Of a stretch of 64,000 bases of DNA, positions 34,616 through 63,979 are shown piece after piece. The stretch covers positions 16,225,792-16,289,791 of the forward strand of contig CM040765.1 of the NCBI GenBank assembly GCA_022829145.1, written 5' to 3'. This DNA comes from Albula goreensis (lineage: Eukaryota > Chordata > Actinopteri > Albuliformes > Albulidae). Position 1 is the stretch's first letter. Every line of letters starts with the position of its first letter. The translations under genes and the position numbers were made by a program. The notes below the pieces were generated by a model that was given only the letters and a program-made list of their open reading frames with translations, had not been told where the DNA came from and made no database searches.

Positions 34616-35522
34616 TGCTTCCGTTCAGGAATGCGGCGAGAGCGGTTGTCACCAGCAATCAAAGATCATCTGTCATCAGCAGCAGAAGTGAGTGTTCGCT
34701 AAGTAAGGTAAGTGAAGATTATTTTTTATAATGTTAACATTTGCTAACTACACCACAAAAACATTTGCAGTATGTGTCGTAGTAAAGATAATGTTAGCCT
34801 TCAAGCTTCTCTGAAGCTGTATCGCTAACTAGTTTGCTAACGTTAGGTAGTGAACCCTGTATTAGCACCAAACATGACACGTTAGGATAGATAGATAGCT
34901 TGGTCAATCCGATTGCAACTTTTATAGTGGCTCACAGCTAGGATCTGGACGAAATCCAACAAATTAAGTTTGCTCTGATAATAATGAACTCATAATACGA
35001 CTATTAGAGTGAATCAACAGCCATCAGATGAAGACATGAAACCTAACTTTCCTGCACAAGCTAGGAGCGTTGGCTAATGTTAGCTGATAACTGAGCTTTT
35101 GCTCGCATTATTACCCACCAATCCAACCAACCTGCCGTGCATGCTCGCTCTTAAGGTTTTAAGCCTGTACAAGAAGTACAGCATTGCCACAACCAAATGC
35201 CAACGCTGTAATGAATGTTTGAGTTATTTGTACTTAGTCCAGTCTGTCAGTCAAAGCTCATTACAGTAGTTGGATTGTTCCGGGTAGCAAACTGAATTTT
35301 TTTGTTTTTGGCGAAATGTGATGAAGCCAGCTGTCTGATGCGGCTTGTAGTTTTGTTGTTAACAATTACTGCTCATAACAATTCAGGACAGTTATTGAAC
35401 CCCAGGACTATGATAACTTTAGATCTTTTTACCCTTTCAAATGAAGTTCTGTTTTCAACCTGTTTTTTTTGTCCAAAATGTTAATGTTCGTTTTCCTCCC
35501 CAAACTCAGGACAATCACCATA

Positions 35523-36571
35523 ATGCCAACTACGCAATCAGCCTTCACATTTGCATTGTACATTTTGATGATAACGGAAATGATACTTGCAAAAAAAGAC
35601 TACTACGACATTCTGGGTGTGTCGAAAGATGCTACTGAACGTCAGATTAAGAAGGCGTTTCACAAGTTAGCAATGCAGTATCACCCGGACAAGAACAAGA
35701 GCCCGGACGCGGAGGCAAAGTTTAGGGAGGTCGCAGAGGGTGAGTTCTGCTCCAGCGAGCATTGCTTGTTCTTTCAGGTTTCAGTGCTCACACTAGTGAT
35801 GGGAAAATAAGGTAATATCACACTATTATGGGTGATACTACAGTATGCCATTAGCCCACTGATTTGGACGAATCGCTGTTTTGTTTTGAAGAAAAAAACC
35901 TTTTGATTGGTTAAAAGAAGTCAGATATTGAGATTCTGTGTGTTATGACACCTCATTATCTTATCACTGTTGTGAATCACTGAATCACCATTAGCTATCC
36001 ATATGAGAAAAATCCTTATATTAGCAAAATCTGCATCAAGCATTTTTATGACATGAGGCCTTGACAACTTTGATATTGACGTTGAATGCCTCACTGTTTA
36101 ATGCATCACCCCATTTGACAATTAAAGCTCAATTTCTGCTTTTTTGCAGCATATGAAACGTTGTCAGATGAGAAGAGGAGGCGGGAATATGATCAGTTTG
36201 GCCACGGCACTTTCCCGAACGAGGGAGCAAGGGGTGGACCCCACCAACACTTCCACCAGCCCTTCAACTTTAACTTTGACAAATTTTTCAAAGACTTTGA
36301 TGTTTTTGAGCAGAACTGGCATGCCCATCAGAACAAGCACTTTGAAAACCACTTCCAGCAGCACCAGGAGGCCCACAGCCACCACCAGGACCCTTTCGGC
36401 AGCCGTATCTTTGACGACATGTTCAGTGACATGGAGAAGATGTTCACATTCAATAGTCGCACAGTAAGGACTGAGAGCCGGTTCCAGAGCTCCACCAAAC
36501 AGCACTGCCGGACAGTGACACAGCGGAGGGGAAACATGGTGAACACTTTCATTGACTGCTCTGCTTCCTGA
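35523..36571 (+). CDS. dnajb9: DnaJ homologue subfamily B member 9 (ERdj4)
   Basis: An ER-lumenal Hsp40 co-chaperone that stimulates BiP and helps dispose of misfolded proteins; it also restrains IRE1 in mammals. Coding exons are 35523-35739 and 36150-36571, joined in codon 73 (G/CA, Ala) with clean GTGAGT and TTTTGCAG borders, giving 212 residues (human 223). Residues 1-23 form a hydrophobic signal/anchor segment. The J domain spans about 26-91 with HPD at 54-56. The Phe-rich middle ([15 protein letters not shown]) and the C-terminal [13 protein letters not shown] block match the family. The start at 35523 was preferred to the upstream in-frame ATG at 35469 because it gives the conserved [20 protein letters not shown] terminus. 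No frame break is seen. A 5' non-coding exon near 34620-34710 is likely. Confidence 0.95.
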
Positions 36572-53660
<17,089 letters not shown>

Positions 53661-54433: not shown

Positions 54434-54551
54434 GTTTGAACAAACAACGCACCAAATAGATCCTGCATCCTCCCGTCACATCGGCATCTAACTACACAAA
54501 CATGCTTTTGCCTTCTTCCAGAGCCCTCGTCTGCCGCCTGCAGCCGTCTCT

Positions 54552-57500
54552 TTACCTCAGCCGGCCGGCCACCTTGCCTTTGCCACGACCTTTGGCACTG
54601 AAAAAAATAAAAAACCAAAAAAGAGGTTAAATTGTGTTGCATAAGTATAAATGATATGTACCTGTCTTGCCACTAGATGTCGCTATGTTGGTTTGTGTTA
54701 GCACTTGGAACAGACTTTCAGGGTTTTCGCTATCGAGTTGTGTTGAATGACACCCCAGCTTTTTTCCCTGAACCATTTTGAAAACTTTAAAACACTATCA
54801 TTTAATGATTATAATGTATTCAGTCTGTGCTTTGGATCCGAGCTCCTCTGTCGAATTGAGCCTAATGAGATGTGCATTGGACCACTTACAGAGTGAGTGG
54901 GGTGTGTCCCGGAGGTGGGAGGCAGGGAGTCCTGCCCCCCTGATTGTGTCATGCAAGTGCAGCATGATGGTAACACGGCAACCCAAGCACAGAACAGACA
55001 CTGGTGCGATGGTGGACGGTGGATGATGGAAGATGGATGAGGCCATTAGAAAGAATGGGAACAGGGAGTTGAAATAGGGATGACCATGTCCGCCTCTTTC
55101 ATTTGCTGCCATTTGCCTTTTTACCATGTTCTCCACATAACATTGCTACTAATGAAGTTAATCTGTATTTAAGAGAGTTCTGATCCACATTATAATTGTG
55201 GATAAGTTTGGGAGGTGATTTACAGGTAGGCTCCAAAGGAAATGCAGTGGAGAGTTTAAAGAGTGAACAGCCACTCCTGTTCAACAACTTAATGTTTTTT
55301 GCCCTCTAATTCAGACCATGGTCATCCCAACAGTAGGGGGCAATGTTGTAGATGAAATGGAGAGGGAGAGGCCACTGGGTGTACCGGCTGGATTAGGATG
55401 CTCTGGTGGCATCCTAATTGTTTTCCGCTGTCTGATCGTCTACTCATTGGAGCAGACATGATCACATGATCTCAGCACACCCTACAGGAGGTCATGTGAA
55501 GTTAAAGGGCCTGGATCGGGGCTGTGGACATGTCCTGAGGGTATGACAGACAAAACCTGTCCAATGAACAGTGCACTTACAAAACCCCTTCTACTGACAG
55601 GAATATGATGAGTCCCTAAATTTTACAGTTGCTTTAACTGGCTAATTGTGTTGAAAATATGCCATGAAACATGTTTCTTATGTTCTGCTATGAAGCATGC
55701 ACAAACAACACTAGTGATTTAACGGAAATAAGTAGTTCAATCATTAATGGACGTTTTATGTATTTAAAATGGTTTCTTTGGTGCCTATATGTGATAAAGC
55801 CTGCTGTTCTGTAGGAAATACCTGTTCAGCCCCCCAAGAGCAGAGTTATCCACCCTTATTCTACATTATAAAGGAATTAAAAATATAGCACAGAGATATC
55901 ATCTGTGAGATATCATCTAAAAGTCCTGTTTATTTTGGAGTCTGGTGGGTAGGAAATGCACAACTCTCAACAGGGGTAATCTGCTTCAAGGAGCAAACTG
56001 GTTTGCTGTGCACCCAAGCCCAGCCCAGCCCAGTCCAGCCCAGTCCAGGCCCTTTAGTCCAGCAGAAACAGCCATTGTGGCTCTGAGTACTTACCTCTGG
56101 TGATCGTTGACCCGAGCAAGGAGCTGAGTGATCTGTAAAGGACACACACATGGATTGCTTTCCTGAGGGCTGAACCAACACTGACCCGACCAGCCGAATC
56201 CTGTCCAGTCCTGGGACGATCCCACCGAGTACCTGTCACCTGTGACCCGTTCCCCCCTCCCCTGCAGCACCTGCCGACCGAGACCGAGACCGTGACCGTG
56301 ACTTTGACCATGACCTGCGACCACCCTGGCCCACAGCGCCCATAATGCGCTTTCTCGACACAGCGACCGACAGCACTGACACAACAGAGAACCATGTTAC
56401 TTACAACTTCTGTTGCTCATTGATTCGGGTTTGGAGCACATTCATCTGTAAGCCAAGTCAAGAGTTTTAGACACGTTCTTCCCAGAGTCACCTGTCCACA
56501 TGGACAGTAACTGGATGCATGGAGTAGTGCTGGAATTTGACTGGTGTTGTGCTGTTTCATACAGTATCACTTCTATTTTTTACACAGATGCAACTTCAAT
56601 GCCACTCTAAAATATACATTTCTAAGACCGTCTGCAATAAAGTGAAAATAATTTATAAACATAGTTCAAAAATCCCTGGGCCTGAAAAAAGATGCAAGAG
56701 CAACATCCAAGAAAAAGTAAAGCTTAGACTTAATTAAATTAACCACATACTGTACGAATAAATTTGTTCTTTTACAGTCATGTTCTTATACTGTGGCTTG
56801 TGTCATTAATTAAATTGTAAGAGAAAGCTGTGAGGATTGTAGGAGGTGATTAATTTAATTAAACTCTGCTTTAACTGTTGAGTCTAGTTTCTTACATTTC
56901 TTATGGATTCATTTGAAATTCATGACAGGAGGACAAACCAGTACAACAGAAGCGGTGGTTCTGTATGAGGTAACCATGGCAACAGGCTGGCACTTCTGCA
57001 CGCTCATACTTACATCATATTTCTGCCGCTTCAGTTTTTCAGTGAGGTCAAACTTCTCTGCCTCAAGTGCCATCATCCATTGCCACAGCTCACTGGCCTT
57101 CTCCCTGTGGGGGGGTGGTCACATGATCAAACTACCTCCTGCCTGCATCCCTGTATTGATCTTTGATCTTTATTTTCCACCATAAAGATTCTACATACAC
57201 ATTTTGAACAACCGTTCAGAATAATTTCAATTGCCTTTATCACCGCTGTTTGACTTAAGTGGTGGATTGATTCTTGACACCATAACTGATCTTGTAGAAC
57301 AAATATCCGGAATGTAGATTCTGAAAACCACATACTTCAGTTTGTCCTCATTCAGGTGATCGACACTAAGCGGCTTCCGTCTCTCAGCCAGGATCTTCTT
57401 CTTCTTCTCTCTCTCTGTTTGCTTCTTGCCCCCTTTACGACCCTCACCCTGTCAATTGATGAACCGCACAGAGAAGTCAGAGTCACTGAACAGCACATAA

Positions 57501-60500
57501 CCTCGCAAAAATACACCCAAAATGAATGATGGGGATCATGGCTTTCATTAACTCTGCAGTGTGTTAATCAAAAATTTGCCACAGATTACTGTCTTGCTCG
57601 AACCAATTAAAAGATTTTTCTCTCCACCATGGAAAAACAACCATTGGCTCAGTGATTTACTGACAGTTCCACCCATTCTTGCTTCATGAGGTCTTATTCC
57701 CCATTGCTACCCAAGCCTATGCAGATTAAATAGCTGTATTAAACTGGCGTTCTGTGGCTCTGTGCTTTATATGAGTTCTTGAAGGTTTTAGTCACAATAA
57801 CATAATGGAGAATTTGGATCCCCATGTTGAGGTAATGATGAGCCAATGGGTGAGTAGATGTTAACCTCTGGACTCAGTCATACAGGAGGATCATCTGCCA
57901 GACCCCACCATCCTGGCAGGTTATAGCAGGGACTTGGTATGATTTTACCAACTGCTATTTTCCATTATACTGGTGGGTTGGGCCACTGTGTGTTAGATGT
58001 AATGTACTGGGTCCAGCGGTGCTGGTGGATCAAAGCGGATCAAGGATCAGATGTGGTCAGACCTTCTGCTGGATCCCGCCGTACTGGTGAGTCATGTTGG
58101 TCAGGACTTTCTTCTTCTTAGCATCTTCATCCTGCTTCTTACGCTGCTCCTCCTGCTCCTTTCTCTCCTTTTCCTCCTATCAGACACAAAACAGGGCCAC
58201 CGTTCAAACTGGGAAACTTAGTTCTATTAATATTAATGTATCATTAATAGCTTATATTAATAGTTTGGCTATATCAGTATTAGCATACTATGGCTAGGTG
58301 ACTGTTAGCCAACCTTGGCTTAGTGTTATTATTTTAAGCTCAGTGAGTTGCAGTATCATAGCTTGGATCTCAATAATGTATCATGGCTAGGTGAATGTAA
58401 GTGTATCTTGGTTACATGACTTACCGCAAGCCTGGCCTGCCTCTCCTTCTCTCTCTCCGCACGGATCCTCTGCTGCTCGGCCCTTTCCGCTCTGCGTTTC
58501 TCCTGCAAACACCCACATCACAAGCACCTTCAAACTCCTGCTGCTAGCCTAGCAGCTAATTTCCAAGAAAGGGTTCCTACTTTCAGTAGCATATCGTTAT
58601 CATCTCCTCCATCCTAGCTGAACACCCTTAGCCCTAAGTTGCTCTAAGTAAGAGCATCCACAAATTAAATAAACTGTAAAATGTACTTCTTCCCACAATG
58701 CAGCATTCCCTTTCATGAGGAATCATGGGGGACTTACAATCCTGCTGACGAGAGCCAGGAGCTCTTCTTCGTCTTTCTTCCTCTGGATGAAATGAGCCTC
58801 GATCAGGGACTGCAGCTCCTGCAGGTCCTTCTCCTGTCGTTTCCTGTGGATGTCCTAACATGCCACAAAAAGGAAACAAACATTACACTTTATTATCATG
58901 CATAGATATCATGCATAAACCCTTCAACCATACTGCTATAAGCCAAAAATATCATCAGTGAATGTTTCTCATTGCCAGGATATCACAAGCACCAGCAACA
59001 TTCCTCACACACTGCATGCCTCCATTAAAATGAGATGTCACACATGAAACATGTTCATTATAAAGTCCCTATATTACTTGTGAGGGTCCTTCACCAAGAT
59101 CACAAGTCTCAGACATAGATCAGATGTCCATGTGTGAGCATGTGCACATTTACAAAACAACGTAACAAGCAAAAGTGGATATTTAGAGGAAAAATGTGTT
59201 CTAACTCACATCAAAATCCACTTTCTCCCCTTCAGGGATTTTTGGTGCAGCAATATTTTGCATAAACATCCTGTGAAGTAGAAGTGGTGTTATTACATGT
59301 GTTTTGCCAAAATAGCTCCTCATATCTATCCAAATCACCAGCTGAAACAAATTCATAAAAGTAACTGTTTCTTCATAGGATAAATATAGCTTGTATATAT
59401 TGCAAACAAAACTGTGCTTATAAGAAAAATTACCATTGTATGATGCAACCATTTTTAGAACTAAACATTGTTCATCAGTACAATAAAATTAATACAAACT
59501 TACTTTGGTTTTGGCCTGGATTCATCTGTTAAGACAAAAAAAAATGTAATTAGTTTCAAAGCTGTATCAAATTATAAAAAAATTATGAACAATACTGTTT
59601 TAAATCTCATTGAAAACTCACCTTCTGTCTGTTCTGCAATTCAAGGGTTGAAAAAGAAAGATCATCTGAGTGAAATTCAGTTTTAATTATTGTACACTGA
59701 ATGATAATGGTAATTCAAATTACATTATCACTTATGATGAACATTTACCTGTCGGTTCGTCTCCAGCTGGAGCTATTGTTTAAAGAAAAAATAAAAGAGA
59801 TGGAAAAAGATTATTGAACAAGATAAAAAGGAAAACACGTACTTCAGACATGACCGGATGATTTTAAACCTGCAAGAAAAGCTGCACATATTTTTTTAGT
59901 TTAGCAGAACCACAAAATTTGAAATGAAAGTAAAAAGTGACATTTCAGTCAGATGATAGTTTTTTGGAGACAGATTTTGGTATAGATACAAAATATGCTT
60001 ATTATGAATGGTTAAGGCAAGACAATTTTTGAAGCAGAAGCTGTTGTTGAGTGAAAAACCAGAGAATTATGAGAGCAAATGTGCAGTCAGCCAGAAGCAG
60101 TCAATTCATTATCAATAACTGTAGCATGGGCAAATTGGCCTACAAATAACGTGATTCAATGGAGACAGCGATTCTCAGCCATATTTGATAATAGGCCATA
60201 GAATCTGACAACAGTCCTGTAGATGGTGTTGTGTGGTGTTGATCAGTTTGTATGGGTGTAATCATTGGGTTTGTGAAACCAGCCTTCTGTAATGGAGGGT
60301 CAGTCAAAGCAAAATACTGCAGTGGTACAGAAAAAAACAGGAATAGCAAATAATACTGTACCACTCAATTATCATACAGGTTCAATAACAATGCTGTCCA
60401 CACCCACTTACACTGGTTCATGTTTCCTATTGGTACAATTGAGTTTCTATTATTAACATACTGATGTCAAAATTATATCTAAAACAAAATAGCATGTTGA

Positions 60501-63500
60501 TAAACTTTTGCAGGCATAACACTTTAAGGTAACACTGTATTTATGCTATATTTGTTTACATGTAGGCTAATAGCCTAAAGCAGCATGTTTGTATAAAAAG
60601 GTAATTAAATTGTCAAACCTCTATTTTCAAAATGTCAGAGCAGCAAAGCAATAGAGATTACCTTTTGCTTCAGGCACTGCATGTGAAAAAAAGGCAGCGT
60701 TGTGATGCAAGAGACAGTGAGAGAGTTATTGTTTCTCTGTGGTTGACAAGCCATAAACTCTTTGCAATACCAGAAATTGATCTCTGGTGAATTCAACAGA
60801 AGTGTTCATCTCACCTGTCACGGTGTTGTACTACTGCCAGAAAAAACCTTTCATCCTTAGAGACCATTACAATCTGTTATTCCTGAAATTTAGTCTACAC
60901 AAATACAACATTTCATACATTTTATACTGATAAACTACCTTCAGTTGTGACAAGCAATTAAAATTGAATAATATCAAAACTACTGGCAGCTAACAACACT
61001 GTGCAGGGTAAGAGTGAATGACACCCCTTGATGGGTAACAGAATATTAGTGTCATACAAATGTTAAACAGGAAAACACATGCATAAAAAGTATATTTATT
61101 TATGGAATCCAACAACTGAGAAAAAAAACAACTGCAAAGTACCTTAGCATGGTTATACACACATGATCATGTTCAAAAACAGATACAGAACTAATAAATA
61201 ATTTCAGAGCCTCCCTGAATGTTTGTTCAGTGACCTGTCTGTGTTAGCCATGCCATCTGGCGCCCTCTTGTGTTCATGCCTCAGCACAGCAGCAAAAGCA
61301 ATGCATTTCTGTTGTTATTGATTTCATGATTTCCCCGAAAATCATACTTCACTGACTTTAATAATAAACTGTAATATATAACCCAAAATAACTGTAAGAT
61401 GGAAACATAAATCAGTGGTAAATGTATAGTACATTCATTGTAAAATACAGTGAAATAATGGCATGCAGATTACAGCTTTCACATTAATTCATTTTCACCA
61501 CAGTTACCTTCCTCCACTGGTGGTGCAACCTCTAATATAAACATGAGATGAATTAGTGAACAAATTAGACATTAGTAAAAGCACTTATTTACAACCTCCA
61601 GATAAAATGTGATGTGTGTGTTCGTGTGTGTGTGCGCGCATGTGTGTGTGTGTGCACGTGTGTTTGGTACATATATGTAATGTAATATCATGCACATTAG
61701 ACCCTTTACACATTCAAATTGACCCAAAGTTTTACCTTCCTCTGCAGGGGCAGCCTCTATGTGAAGATGTGATGCAGTTAGTTAACAAATAATATATGGT
61801 CATAAGTAAAAGCTATCTTTTTTAAACTATAAATGAATATATGTATACAAATCTTGCTATCATATATTGTGGTACAGCAATTTTGTATGAAACAGTATCT
61901 TGAAATGTAAAATTCTGTAGCTGACTATTGAAGGAAGATGAATACTTTGACACAAACTTTACCTTCCTCCTTTGCAGGGGCTACCTCTAAGATGAATAAG
62001 ATGAATTAGTTAGCAGATTTATTCATAAGGTACAGCTTTTTGTATTAGTTGAAGTTATAACAATGCACATTATAAATAGTGAATTTTGAATGAAAGCTTT
62101 TACAAAATATTTAGAGCTTTACCTTCTTCCTCTGCAGGGGCTACCTCTAAGATGAATAAGATGAATTAGTTAGCAACTTTAGCCATTAGTTATAGCTTTT
62201 TGTATTAGTTATGGTTATAGCAATGCATATTATAAATGGTGAATCTTGAATGAAAGCTTTATAAAAATATAACAAGAACTTTACCTTCTTCCTCTGCAGG
62301 GGCTGTGTGGACATAAAAATAATTAGCAAATAAAATAATTGCTAATATCTCTTTGCATGTATAAATGAGTCATATTCAGCAGGTTTGCACTCCAACTGTT
62401 TTACATTACAGTATGTACCGTTAGGGAATACTGAAATATAACATTGTTTTTGTATTTGAAGATGAACTATTATCTTAACAGTATAAGGTTGTAGGGTCTG
62501 GTGATATAAACAGTATATATGAGAGCATAACATATTCCTTATATAATCATGCATACTGTGTATTGAACAGTACAACAAAAAAGCGTGTAGCATAAAAATG
62601 AACATTTGGATAGCTGAATGACCTTTACCTTGTTCTTCCGCTGGGGCCTCCTCTAACAAGTGGATATAAAATGAATTAGTTAGCAAATACAGCCATTAGT
62701 GAAAAGCTCTTTGTATTTGAAAATGAATCATAAACTATCTTAGAATAATTAAAAAGATAGTTTATCCAAATACAAATCTCTTATGACACAAATGCTTGAT
62801 GTGTAAAGGTAATTGCATACAACATAACAATTCAAACTTTGACACAAATTCAGATCTATGAGAATATTACCTGGTTCCTCTGTTGGGGTCTCCTCTAATA
62901 TGTGAACATAAGAGTGAATTAGTACATGTGGCCGTTAGTAATTGCTTTTTCTGGAAATTAACCGTACAAAATCATGTTGCCATTTTATTATTTTATTACT
63001 TAGCATGTATAGTACATTGTATGCATGTACATGTATATATAAATATATACATAAACACTTACACATAATACAATGTAGCAGCATGCAGCATAAATATCTA
63101 TGAGATCTTTACCTGGTTTTTCTGCGGGAGCAGCTACTAATGAGTGAACATAAGATTAATTAGTTATATAATGTATATTATATATAATTAATCTTACATA
63201 TATACATGTAATGTATACATGTATATAGTCTTATCATACTAACACTTTCACATCATACACACAATATTTCATCCAGCCAAAGCTTTACTTTCTACAGCAT
63301 CCTATAGCACTAGCTGGTGAATGAAAAATTTCCAAGTTCTTCAACCTTAGTTTCAGTTCCAATCACATACATTATACACATTATACAGAATAATGTATGT
63401 AGTGAACACAACAGTCATTAGTTTAATACTTAATCTGCAAATACCAAACATACATCATATACCGTATGCAATGTACTGTATATAATGTAATGGCACACAC

Positions 63501-63979
63501 ATAGCACCTTTCATACAAGTTCATATCTGACTTTACCTTCCTCTTCAGCGGGAGCTTCATCTATATGAATATGAGAACAATAATTCAATAATACAGCATA
63601 TCAAAACACTAATACATTCATCGATTTGTTATATATATATATAAAAAAATGTAGCAGCATGCAAATGAAGGGCTTTCACACAGCTTCACGTCTACACAAA
63701 GTTACCTTCTACTGCAGGGGCCACCTCTACTGCTAGCATGTGAACAAAGGATTAATTAGTTCACCGCCATTAGTTTCAGTTCAGTTAAAACACATACATT
63801 ATAAACATTATAATGTATGAGGTAAACAGTAAACATGTACGTACATTATAAACAGAAGTCTTACCTTCTATAATACATTTAATATTTACAGTTTATAATG
63901 TAGCAACATGCAAAACTACACGCCTTCACACGTATTCATATTCACAAAAAAGGTTTACCTTCCTCTGTAGGAGCCACCA
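54552..63979 (-). CDS. Troponin T (muscle thin-filament regulator), 5' end outside window
   Basis: The tropomyosin-binding subunit of troponin, tethering troponin C and I to the thin filament. Main exons, 5' to 3': 59504-59525, 59210-59270, 58738-58854, 58425-58502, 58063-58176, 57336-57448, 57014-57104, 56095-56132, 54552-54597; upstream are fourteen micro-exons, listed separately. Conserved text: [33 protein letters not shown] (tropomyosin-binding region), [38 protein letters not shown] (IT arm) and [15 protein letters not shown]. All phases fit with no frame break. The sequence mixes features of cardiac (TNNT2), slow (TNNT1) and fast (TNNT3) types; VDFDDIHRKR and QYGGIQQK favour a TNNT2-like fish paralogue, but the paralogue is not certain. 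Odd: the C terminus ends GKVAGRLR where the family normally ends GGRWK, and the donor after QQK is GTCTGA. Confidence 0.9.
56021..56049. repeat. Short (CAGCC/CAGTC)n repeat
   Basis: About six pentamer units in a troponin T intron, 46 bp downstream (transcript sense) of the exon at 56095-56132. Confidence 0.75.
59622..59633 (-). CDS. Troponin T micro-exon 1 (12 nt)
   Basis: AACAGACAGAAG; encodes E-Q-T-E and the first base of the next Asp. Acceptor TTGCAG, donor GTGAGT. It links the acidic array to ESRPKPK. Confidence 0.75.
59749..59772 (-). CDS. Troponin T micro-exon 2 (24 nt)
   Basis: Encodes A-P-A-G-D-E-P-T. Acceptor CAATAG, donor GTAAAT; phase 1-1. Confidence 0.75.
60662..60676 (-). CDS. 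Troponin T micro-exon 3 (15 nt)
   Basis: TGCCTGAAGCAAAAG; encodes V-P-E-A-K. Acceptor CATGCAG, donor GTAATC; phase 1-1. Least like the repeat unit. Confidence 0.65.
61508..61531 (-). CDS. Troponin T micro-exon 4 (24 nt)
   Basis: Encodes E-V-A-P-P-V-E-E. Acceptor ATATTAG, donor GTAACT; phase 1-1. Confidence 0.75.
61618..61664. repeat. Imperfect (TG)n microsatellite
   Basis: TG/CG-type run in the intron between troponin T micro-exons 4 and 5. Confidence 0.8.
61736..61756 (-). CDS. Troponin T micro-exon 5 (21 nt)
   Basis: Encodes E-A-A-P-A-E-E. Acceptor ACATAG, donor GTAAAA; phase 1-1. Confidence 0.75.
61963..61986 (-). CDS. Troponin T micro-exon 6 (24 nt)
   Basis: Encodes E-V-A-P-A-K-E-E. 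Acceptor CTTAG, donor GTAAAG; phase 1-1. Flanking intron nearly identical to that of micro-exon 7. Confidence 0.78.
62123..62146 (-). CDS. Troponin T micro-exon 7 (24 nt)
   Basis: Encodes E-V-A-P-A-E-E-E, the consensus unit. Acceptor CTTAG, donor GTAAAG; phase 1-1. Confidence 0.78.
62285..62302 (-). CDS. Troponin T micro-exon 8 (18 nt)
   Basis: Encodes A-P-A-E-E-E. The acceptor has moved to CACACAG, shortening the unit by two codons while keeping phase 1-1. Confidence 0.75.
62629..62652 (-). CDS. Troponin T micro-exon 9 (24 nt)
   Basis: Encodes E-E-A-P-A-E-E-Q. Acceptor TGTTAG, donor GTAAAG; phase 1-1. Confidence 0.75.
62871..62894 (-). CDS. Troponin T micro-exon 10 (24 nt)
   Basis: Encodes E-E-T-P-T-E-E-P. 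Acceptor ATATTAG, donor GTAATA; phase 1-1. Confidence 0.73.
63113..63136 (-). CDS. Troponin T micro-exon 11 (24 nt)
   Basis: Encodes V-A-A-P-A-E-K-P. Two adjacent AGs (ATTAG and TAG 3 nt later) allow a 24- or 21-nt exon, both in frame. Donor GTAAAG. Confidence 0.7.
63287..63310 (-). pseudogene. Decayed troponin T micro-exon
   Basis: Between micro-exons 11 and 12, spaced like a unit. It keeps a CTAG acceptor and a GTAAAG donor, but the exon text in the shared phase carries an in-frame TAG and has lost the A-P-A-E core. Confidence 0.5.
63537..63560 (-). CDS. Troponin T micro-exon 12 (24 nt)
   Basis: Encodes D-E-A-P-A-E-E-E. Acceptor ATATAG, donor GTAAAG; phase 1-1. Confidence 0.75.
63706..63726 (-). 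CDS. Troponin T micro-exon 13 (21 nt)
   Basis: Encodes E-V-A-P-A-V-E. Acceptor CAGTAG, donor GTAACT; phase 1-1. Confidence 0.73.
63862..63872 (-). pseudogene. Remnant donor of a lost troponin T micro-exon
   Basis: AGAAG followed by GTAAGA on the minus strand, between micro-exons 13 and 14, looks like the 3' end of a unit whose 5' part has been replaced by AT-rich sequence. Confidence 0.3.
63959..63979 (-). CDS. Troponin T micro-exon 14 (21 nt)
   Basis: Encodes V-V-A-P-T-E-E. Acceptor TGCTAG, donor GTAAAC; phase 1-1. It is the most 5' copy in the window. Confidence 0.73.

Follow-up and report, generated by a model that had tools for sequence, protein, structure and literature searches.

A tandem array of eleven in-frame micro-exon units in a troponin T gene of the bonefish Albula goreensis

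Gene structure and micro-exons

The DNA considered here, which we call the window, is a stretch of 64,000 nucleotides (nt) of the genome of Albula goreensis, an elopomorph fish (assembly GCA_022829145.1, contig CM040765.1, positions 16,225,792 to 16,289,791), and its numbering is used throughout. Towards its right-hand end it carries, on the minus strand, a troponin T gene made up of an ATG exon, an 8-nt exon, eleven repeated micro-exons (u1-u11), three further micro-exons (v, w and x) and exons c1-c9 with the stop codon (Table 1). The coding gene is complete, with its splice sites and stop, and encodes 345 amino acids (aa) when all exons are included. At full inclusion, 122 residues with a net charge of -46, none of them histidine, precede the conserved PKPKMFM stretch. 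The protein matches the Pfam troponin domain (PF00992, E 6.1e-30) and, over residues 19-244 of the core query, human cardiac TnT (E 4.8e-87), which identifies the gene as a troponin T, in agreement with an earlier sequence-only reading of this DNA.

That reading had described fourteen micro-exons of 12-24 nt, and all of them are present on the minus strand within 59622-63979, each a multiple of three and in phase 1 at both entry and exit. Eleven, of 18, 21 or 24 nt, are u1-u11 and follow, as claimed, variants of one E-V-A-P-A-E-E-E pattern; the other three are v, w and x. Its view that the array runs off the window did not hold, as the array ends at 63979. Extending the sequence to the right to count the units, which it had recommended, brought up the 8-nt and ATG exons past 64000, and the live-unit count is therefore eleven, plus one decayed copy. 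The decayed unit has a local alignment score of 42 against the u2 cassette (the best of 1000 single-base shuffles reached 33), and since it contains an in-phase stop, the array evidently both gains and loses units.

Two smaller sources of variation were noted inside the array. NAGNAG acceptors at u2 (63706-63732, 27 nt) and u4 (63113-63136, 24 nt) would add one residue each, and a possible 3-nt exon, AAG, lies at 63865-63867 in the u1-u2 intron, flanked by tatag and gtaaga. At the other end of the gene, the 41-nt exon c8 and a 38-nt alternative are probably mutually exclusive, because their joint use breaks the frame.

Table 1. Exons of the troponin T gene and UGCAUG motifs near the array donors, in the order of transcription
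Feature	Position	Strand	Size (nt)	Peptide	Donor	Remark
ATG exon	64234-64300	minus				just beyond window edge, from adjoining contig sequence
8-nt exon	64070-64077	minus	8			phase 2-to-1; just beyond window edge
u1	63959..63979	minus	21	VVAPTEE	gtaaac	
UGCAUG	63907..63912	minus				47 nt downstream of u1 donor
u2	63706..63729	minus	24	VEVAPAVE	gtaact	peptide pattern also in Anguilla and Conger models
UGCAUG	63658..63663	minus				43 nt downstream of u2 donor
u3	63537..63560	minus	24	DEAPAEEE	gtaaag	pattern also in Anguilla and Conger models
decayed array unit	63289..63309	minus				in-phase stop; aligns locally to u2 cassette
u4	63113..63133	minus	21	AAPAEKP	gtaaag	
UGCAUG	63082..63087	minus				26 nt downstream of u4 donor
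u5	62871..62894	minus	24	EETPTEEP	gtaata	
u6	62629..62652	minus	24	EEAPAEEQ	gtaaag	
UGCAUG	62548..62553	minus				76 nt downstream of u6 donor
u7	62285..62302	minus	18	APAEEE	gtaaag	
u8	62123..62146	minus	24	EVAPAEEE	gtaaag	about 160-bp tandem duplicate of u9
u9	61963..61986	minus	24	EVAPAKEE	gtaaag	
u10	61736..61756	minus	21	EAAPAEE	gtaaaa	
UGCAUG	61689..61694	minus				42 nt downstream of u10 donor
u11	61508..61531	minus	24	EVAPPVEE	gtaact	
UGCAUG	61462..61467	minus				41 nt downstream of u11 donor
v	60662..60676	minus	15	VPEAK	gtaatc	
w	59749..59772	minus	24	APAGDEPT	gtaaat	
x	59622..59633	minus	12	EQTE	gtgagt	strong donor
c1	59504..59525	minus				constitutive-type
c2	59210..59270	minus				constitutive-type
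c3	58738..58854	minus				constitutive-type
c4	58425..58502	minus				constitutive-type
c5	58063..58176	minus				constitutive-type
c6	57336..57448	minus				constitutive-type
c7	57014..57104	minus				constitutive-type
c8	56405..56445	minus	41			C-terminal exon, one of a pair
alternative C-terminal exon	56095..56132	minus	38			
c9	54550..54597	minus				last coding exon, with stop codon

Splice signals

The donors fall into two groups. A G at position +5 is present in all eleven of the other exons (the ATG exon, the 8-nt exon, x and c1-c8) and in none of the thirteen formed by u1-u11, v and w. Given its strong donor, x is probably constitutive, and the likely cassettes are therefore thirteen and not fourteen.

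Two motifs are enriched around the units. ACUAAY, which resembles both a QKI site and a branch point, occurs 16 times within the 70 nt upstream of the units, in nine of the eleven introns (shuffle mean 1.4, maximum 7), and at one of the ten other acceptors (c1-c9 and the 8-nt exon). UGCAUG, an RBFOX-like motif, lies within 90 nt downstream of the donor in six of the eleven units, as compared with a mean of 1.4 introns and a maximum of 5 in shuffles and with none of the eleven other donors.

Coding constraint and combinatorial capacity

Among the seven 24-nt units, identity is 0.75, 0.72 and 0.435 at codon positions 1, 2 and 3, and permutation of the position labels of the 24 columns yields p = 0.004. 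The introns flanking the units have identities of 0.35 upstream and 0.29 downstream. With codon position 3 the most divergent between them, the array units look translated.

Every exon from the 8-nt exon through w ends in G, so that all junction codons are GNN and never a stop; in the 196 pairs tested, the codon at the junction is always one for E, V, A or D. The claim that any subset of the micro-exons can be skipped in frame accordingly stands for the thirteen weak-donor exons, all 8,192 of whose 8,192 subsets are open and distinct. Across these subsets the computed N-termini span 26-122 residues and charges of -12 to -46.

Origin and uniqueness of the array

Tandem duplication of a single unit, as the sequence-only reading supposed, is borne out by copies of a joint exon-plus-intron cassette, which is visible in an alignment of all eleven units. 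A tandem of period 160 occupies 61955-62304 (87% matches) and the longest pair found in a repeat search is 154 nt and 88% alike; beyond the splice sites, mean flank identity among the units drops to 0.24-0.36. The possibility that the cassette is a dispersed repeat was rejected, as a 421-base genome search matched its own place and one more array unit only, these counts being lower bounds since the search skips very common words.

We also scanned for open phase-1/1 micro-exon candidates, using splice-consensus weights. Over the 64 kb, the minus strand gave 20 open candidates, 14 of them acidic, which together recover 12 of the micro-exons (all but u1 and u10, which fell under the cut, with u2 and u4 counted twice through alternative acceptors), and the plus strand gave 5 open candidates, 1 of them acidic. 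The array is in this respect more than a chance occurrence. The same scan, applied to the 10 kb upstream of exon c3 at each intron-bearing troponin T locus of the genome, a span that would miss arrays lying farther upstream, returned 0-3 rows at each of the seven other intron-bearing loci versus 20 at the array locus; these 20 include nested alternatives and recover 13 of the 14 exons, u1 being missed. Within the stretches scanned, no troponin T locus but this one has an array.

Gene identity and paralogues

The gene probably belongs to the pair that NCBI names tnnt2e and tnnt2d, and to the TNNT4 class if a caldesmon-family neighbour is taken as a guide. A protein search, of which we used the best 120 of 2,681 matches, placed Anguilla and Conger models highest, and troponin T2e is the name given to many of the rows that follow. 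Upstream on the same strand, at 79.2-82.8 kb of the extended contig, three open frames match Pfam Caldesmon PF02029 (E 1.4e-12, at 47.6 bits below the cut-off of 50; 3.1e-25; and 4.1e-18). This Pfam family may also cover LSP1, a neighbour of TNNT3, and the TNNT4 class is for that reason probable and unproven. In PMC9825255, caldesmon adjoins the TNNT4 class (locus IV) and LSP1 adjoins TNNT3; the array locus has a caldesmon-family neighbour. A 29-row tree leaves tnnt2d and tnnt2e unseparated, with 16 of its 26 inner branches open and the array gene in no starred set.

Besides eight troponin T loci with introns, the Albula goreensis genome has a single intronless copy. The sister copy, on contig C23, is the Albula goreensis model P0061, itself named T2e in the database, all 239 residues of which can be placed along C23 as nine exact consecutive pieces. 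The intronless copy retains an intact 317-aa frame on the minus strand of contig C1 near 67.80 Mb (L032:1158-2111), and intronless TnT is tabulated for two fishes in PMC1919359, so that copies of this kind are already known.

Relatives in eels and other fishes

The matches were clustered at 90% identity, and isoform numbers are not countable from such clusters. Comparison with related fish, another step the sequence-only reading had called for, gave repeated units in Anguilla and Conger models. Among the Anguilla models, three are distinguished from one another by entire in-frame segments, namely EEAPVDDQ, EMPPADEETPAQEE and VPEAK, as well as by an insertion, AAYTLTDCSRVHI. Model X7 has VPEAK, the residues of exon v, whereas X3 and X48 lack it. 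NCBI models with X numbers are based on alignments of transcripts, and one Anguilla troponin T model carries a number as high as X48; X3 is a 344-aa protein with a long run of units. The Conger conger model, named T2e, also contains repeated units similar to the array. Since VEVAPA(V/L/M)E and DEAP(A/V)EEE are common to Albula, Anguilla and Conger, it seems that at least two array units are old and shared among the three genera. A peptide like that of exon x (EPTE, EHTE or EQTE) occurs in Anguilla, Conger and Megalops models.

When residues 1-125 of an Anguilla model served as the query, four proteins were recovered, the query among them, and all came from Anguilla or Conger. E, P, A, V and D residues ahead of the conserved core, counted in models whose lengths are rough and come from mixed annotations, number 110 for the Albula gene, 111 for Conger P0004, and 104, 101 and 82 for Anguilla P0002, P0001 and P0005. 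Among T2e-named models (57 of 61 measured, with P0004 kept apart) the median count is 37 and the highest 61; the corresponding values for T2d-named models (15 of 15 measured) are 14 and 39, both sets having been hand-listed by name. The highest among the other rows are P0094 (75), P0065 (66) and P0113 (65). P0021, from Hemibagrus guttatus, was set aside as chimeric though it scored highest of all rows: in this model troponin T is joined to a reverse transcriptase, and its N-terminal repeats are PEAEVEE-like.

A single-nucleotide polymorphism (SNP) locus called "Troponin T2e" figures in Atlantic eel selection-scan panels (PMC4069275, PMC4535825); in one eel its allele frequencies are variable, and the other sample tabulated is fixed for it.

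Discussion

We consider it likely that the array forms the variable 5' part of a troponin T gene that is complete and probably functional, and that its eleven tandemly duplicated in-frame cassette exons, with their weak donors, undergo factor-dependent splicing that sets the acidic N-terminus. What is observed is how the gene is built, that its frames are open and under coding constraint, that the donors fall into two classes, that the motifs are enriched and that eel models contain repeated units; from this we infer that the units are spliced in vivo and which factors take part. A cassette comprising an ACUAAY branch-point region, a weak acceptor, a phase-1/1 exon of about 24 nt and a donor without +5G was duplicated in tandem to eleven live units, about half of the copies also carrying a downstream UGCAUG. 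The weak donors would make each unit depend on muscle splicing factors, with QKI at the upstream ACUAAY hindering inclusion and RBFOX at the downstream UGCAUG favouring it, and the balance of these factors within a fibre would then fix the number of acidic N-terminal units. The resulting length and charge of the N-terminus may in turn tune the calcium response of the thin filament.

Some of these steps have precedents. The QKI and RBFOX motifs are given in muscle splicing work (PMC12064062, PMC10202634), in which the factors act as repressors when they bind upstream of an exon and as activators when they bind downstream of it (PMC12064062; PMC10202634 for QKI), and one muscle microexon became constitutive when its donor was strengthened (PMC12064062). 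Greater acidity of the TnT N-terminus has been linked to raised calcium sensitivity (PMC11016001), and cardiac TnT without its N-terminal region binds TnI and tropomyosin largely as before (PMC4012202); tuning of the calcium response would therefore seem the likeliest physiological effect.

Several points weigh against this interpretation. A nearby UGCAUG is absent at five of the eleven units and at v and w, and ACUAAY is absent from the last 70 nt before two of the eleven units and before v, w and x. The motif and donor counts are not independent, because the array units are duplicates of one another. ACUAAY sits at the branch-point position and may be a branch point only, and the short introns put one and the same ACUAAY both upstream of a unit and downstream of the previous one. 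The array is absent from the protein models retrieved for Megalops, Aldrovandia and Synaphobranchus; such models may represent the sister paralogue, or an annotation without the micro-exons, and the Synaphobranchus model groups with the C23 copy at 82/75 in the 29-row tree. Finally, TNNT4 transcripts are reported as seldom detected in PMC9825255.

If the units are real exons that are mostly all included, the gene would make one fixed, longer acidic N-terminus and the variation would lie between species. The coding constraint is compatible with any translated use, and Anguilla X3 does hold its long unit run within one protein, yet a fixed N-terminus sits poorly with the absence of +5G from all thirteen array donors when every other donor has it, and with Anguilla models that vary by whole segments, one of them numbered X48; we think it quite unlikely. 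That the array is largely dead, a set of intronic tandem duplicates whose splice-like sites persist by common descent and are rarely used, appears very improbable to us: one unit has decayed and TNNT4 expression is seldom seen in other fishes (PMC9825255), but eleven units remain open with their divergence concentrated at third positions, and repeated units reach eel protein models. Tandem repeats are in general prone to mis-assembly, but an assembly artefact is hardly credible when the copies differ as they do, with the longest pair 88% alike over 154 nt and flanks at 0.24-0.36, and when eel models contain comparable repeats.

The reading of the array as a region of factor-dependent cassette exons can be carried further, to a graded splicing rheostat of elopomorph fishes, in which each duplicated cassette with its own QKI- and RBFOX-like sites would add a step and the number of included units would shift at leptocephalus metamorphosis or between fibre types, thereby setting the calcium response of the thin filament. 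In this extended form the proposal is speculative, and we regard it as unlikely.

Among known systems, the closest in kind are the P exons (Tx segment) that Galliformes and Craciformes have in TNNT3, the fast skeletal gene. These are likewise tandem small exons, and the short repeated peptide that they encode lies within the N-terminal variable region of TnT (PMC11016001, PMC8990283); chicken TNNT3 has seven of them, alternatively spliced (PMC11016001). The bonefish array differs in lying in another paralogue class, in having eleven units against seven, and in its peptide, since the P exons encode a His-rich metal-binding motif, H(E/A)EAH, whereas the array encodes E-V-A-P-A-E-E-E without histidine. 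Its origin is probably separate from theirs. Alternative splicing of the bonefish array is predicted from its genomic sequence, and the numbering of eel models bears on it indirectly. TNNT3 of mammals and fish and cardiac TNNT2 also have small, alternatively spliced 5' exons that are in frame and alter N-terminal length and charge (PMC11016001, PMC1919359), but they are few and diverse where the bonefish array is homogeneous. The models of Anguilla anguilla and Conger conger have similar repeated units, and VPEAK recurs in Anguilla; unit number and sequence otherwise differ from Albula, the eels being compared through protein models.

The sequence-only reading had suspected that such an array was undescribed in fish. 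We found no published description of one in the literature searched, which covered few subscription journals, although public databases already contain eel protein models that have such repeats, for which we found no description. What is known, then, is the existence of tandem spliced TnT exons in fowl; what is new is a larger array, in another gene class and with another peptide.

A single gene here offers up to 8,192 in-frame N-termini of widely graded length and charge, and the all-or-none difference in donor +5G predicts which exons vary. The locus is also a tractable case for asking how duplicated exons retain or lose common splicing control. According to PMC11016001, it has still to be established what the N-terminal splice variants of TnT signify, and the site of expression of TNNT4, the probable class of this gene, was left open by the authors of PMC9825255.

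Other features of the window

Outside the troponin T gene, a 322-aa open frame at 26727-27692 matches the rhodopsin-family receptors (PF00001, E 2.3e-41), and coding segments at 35445-35807 and 45133-45417 belong to DnaJ-domain and dynamin-family proteins.

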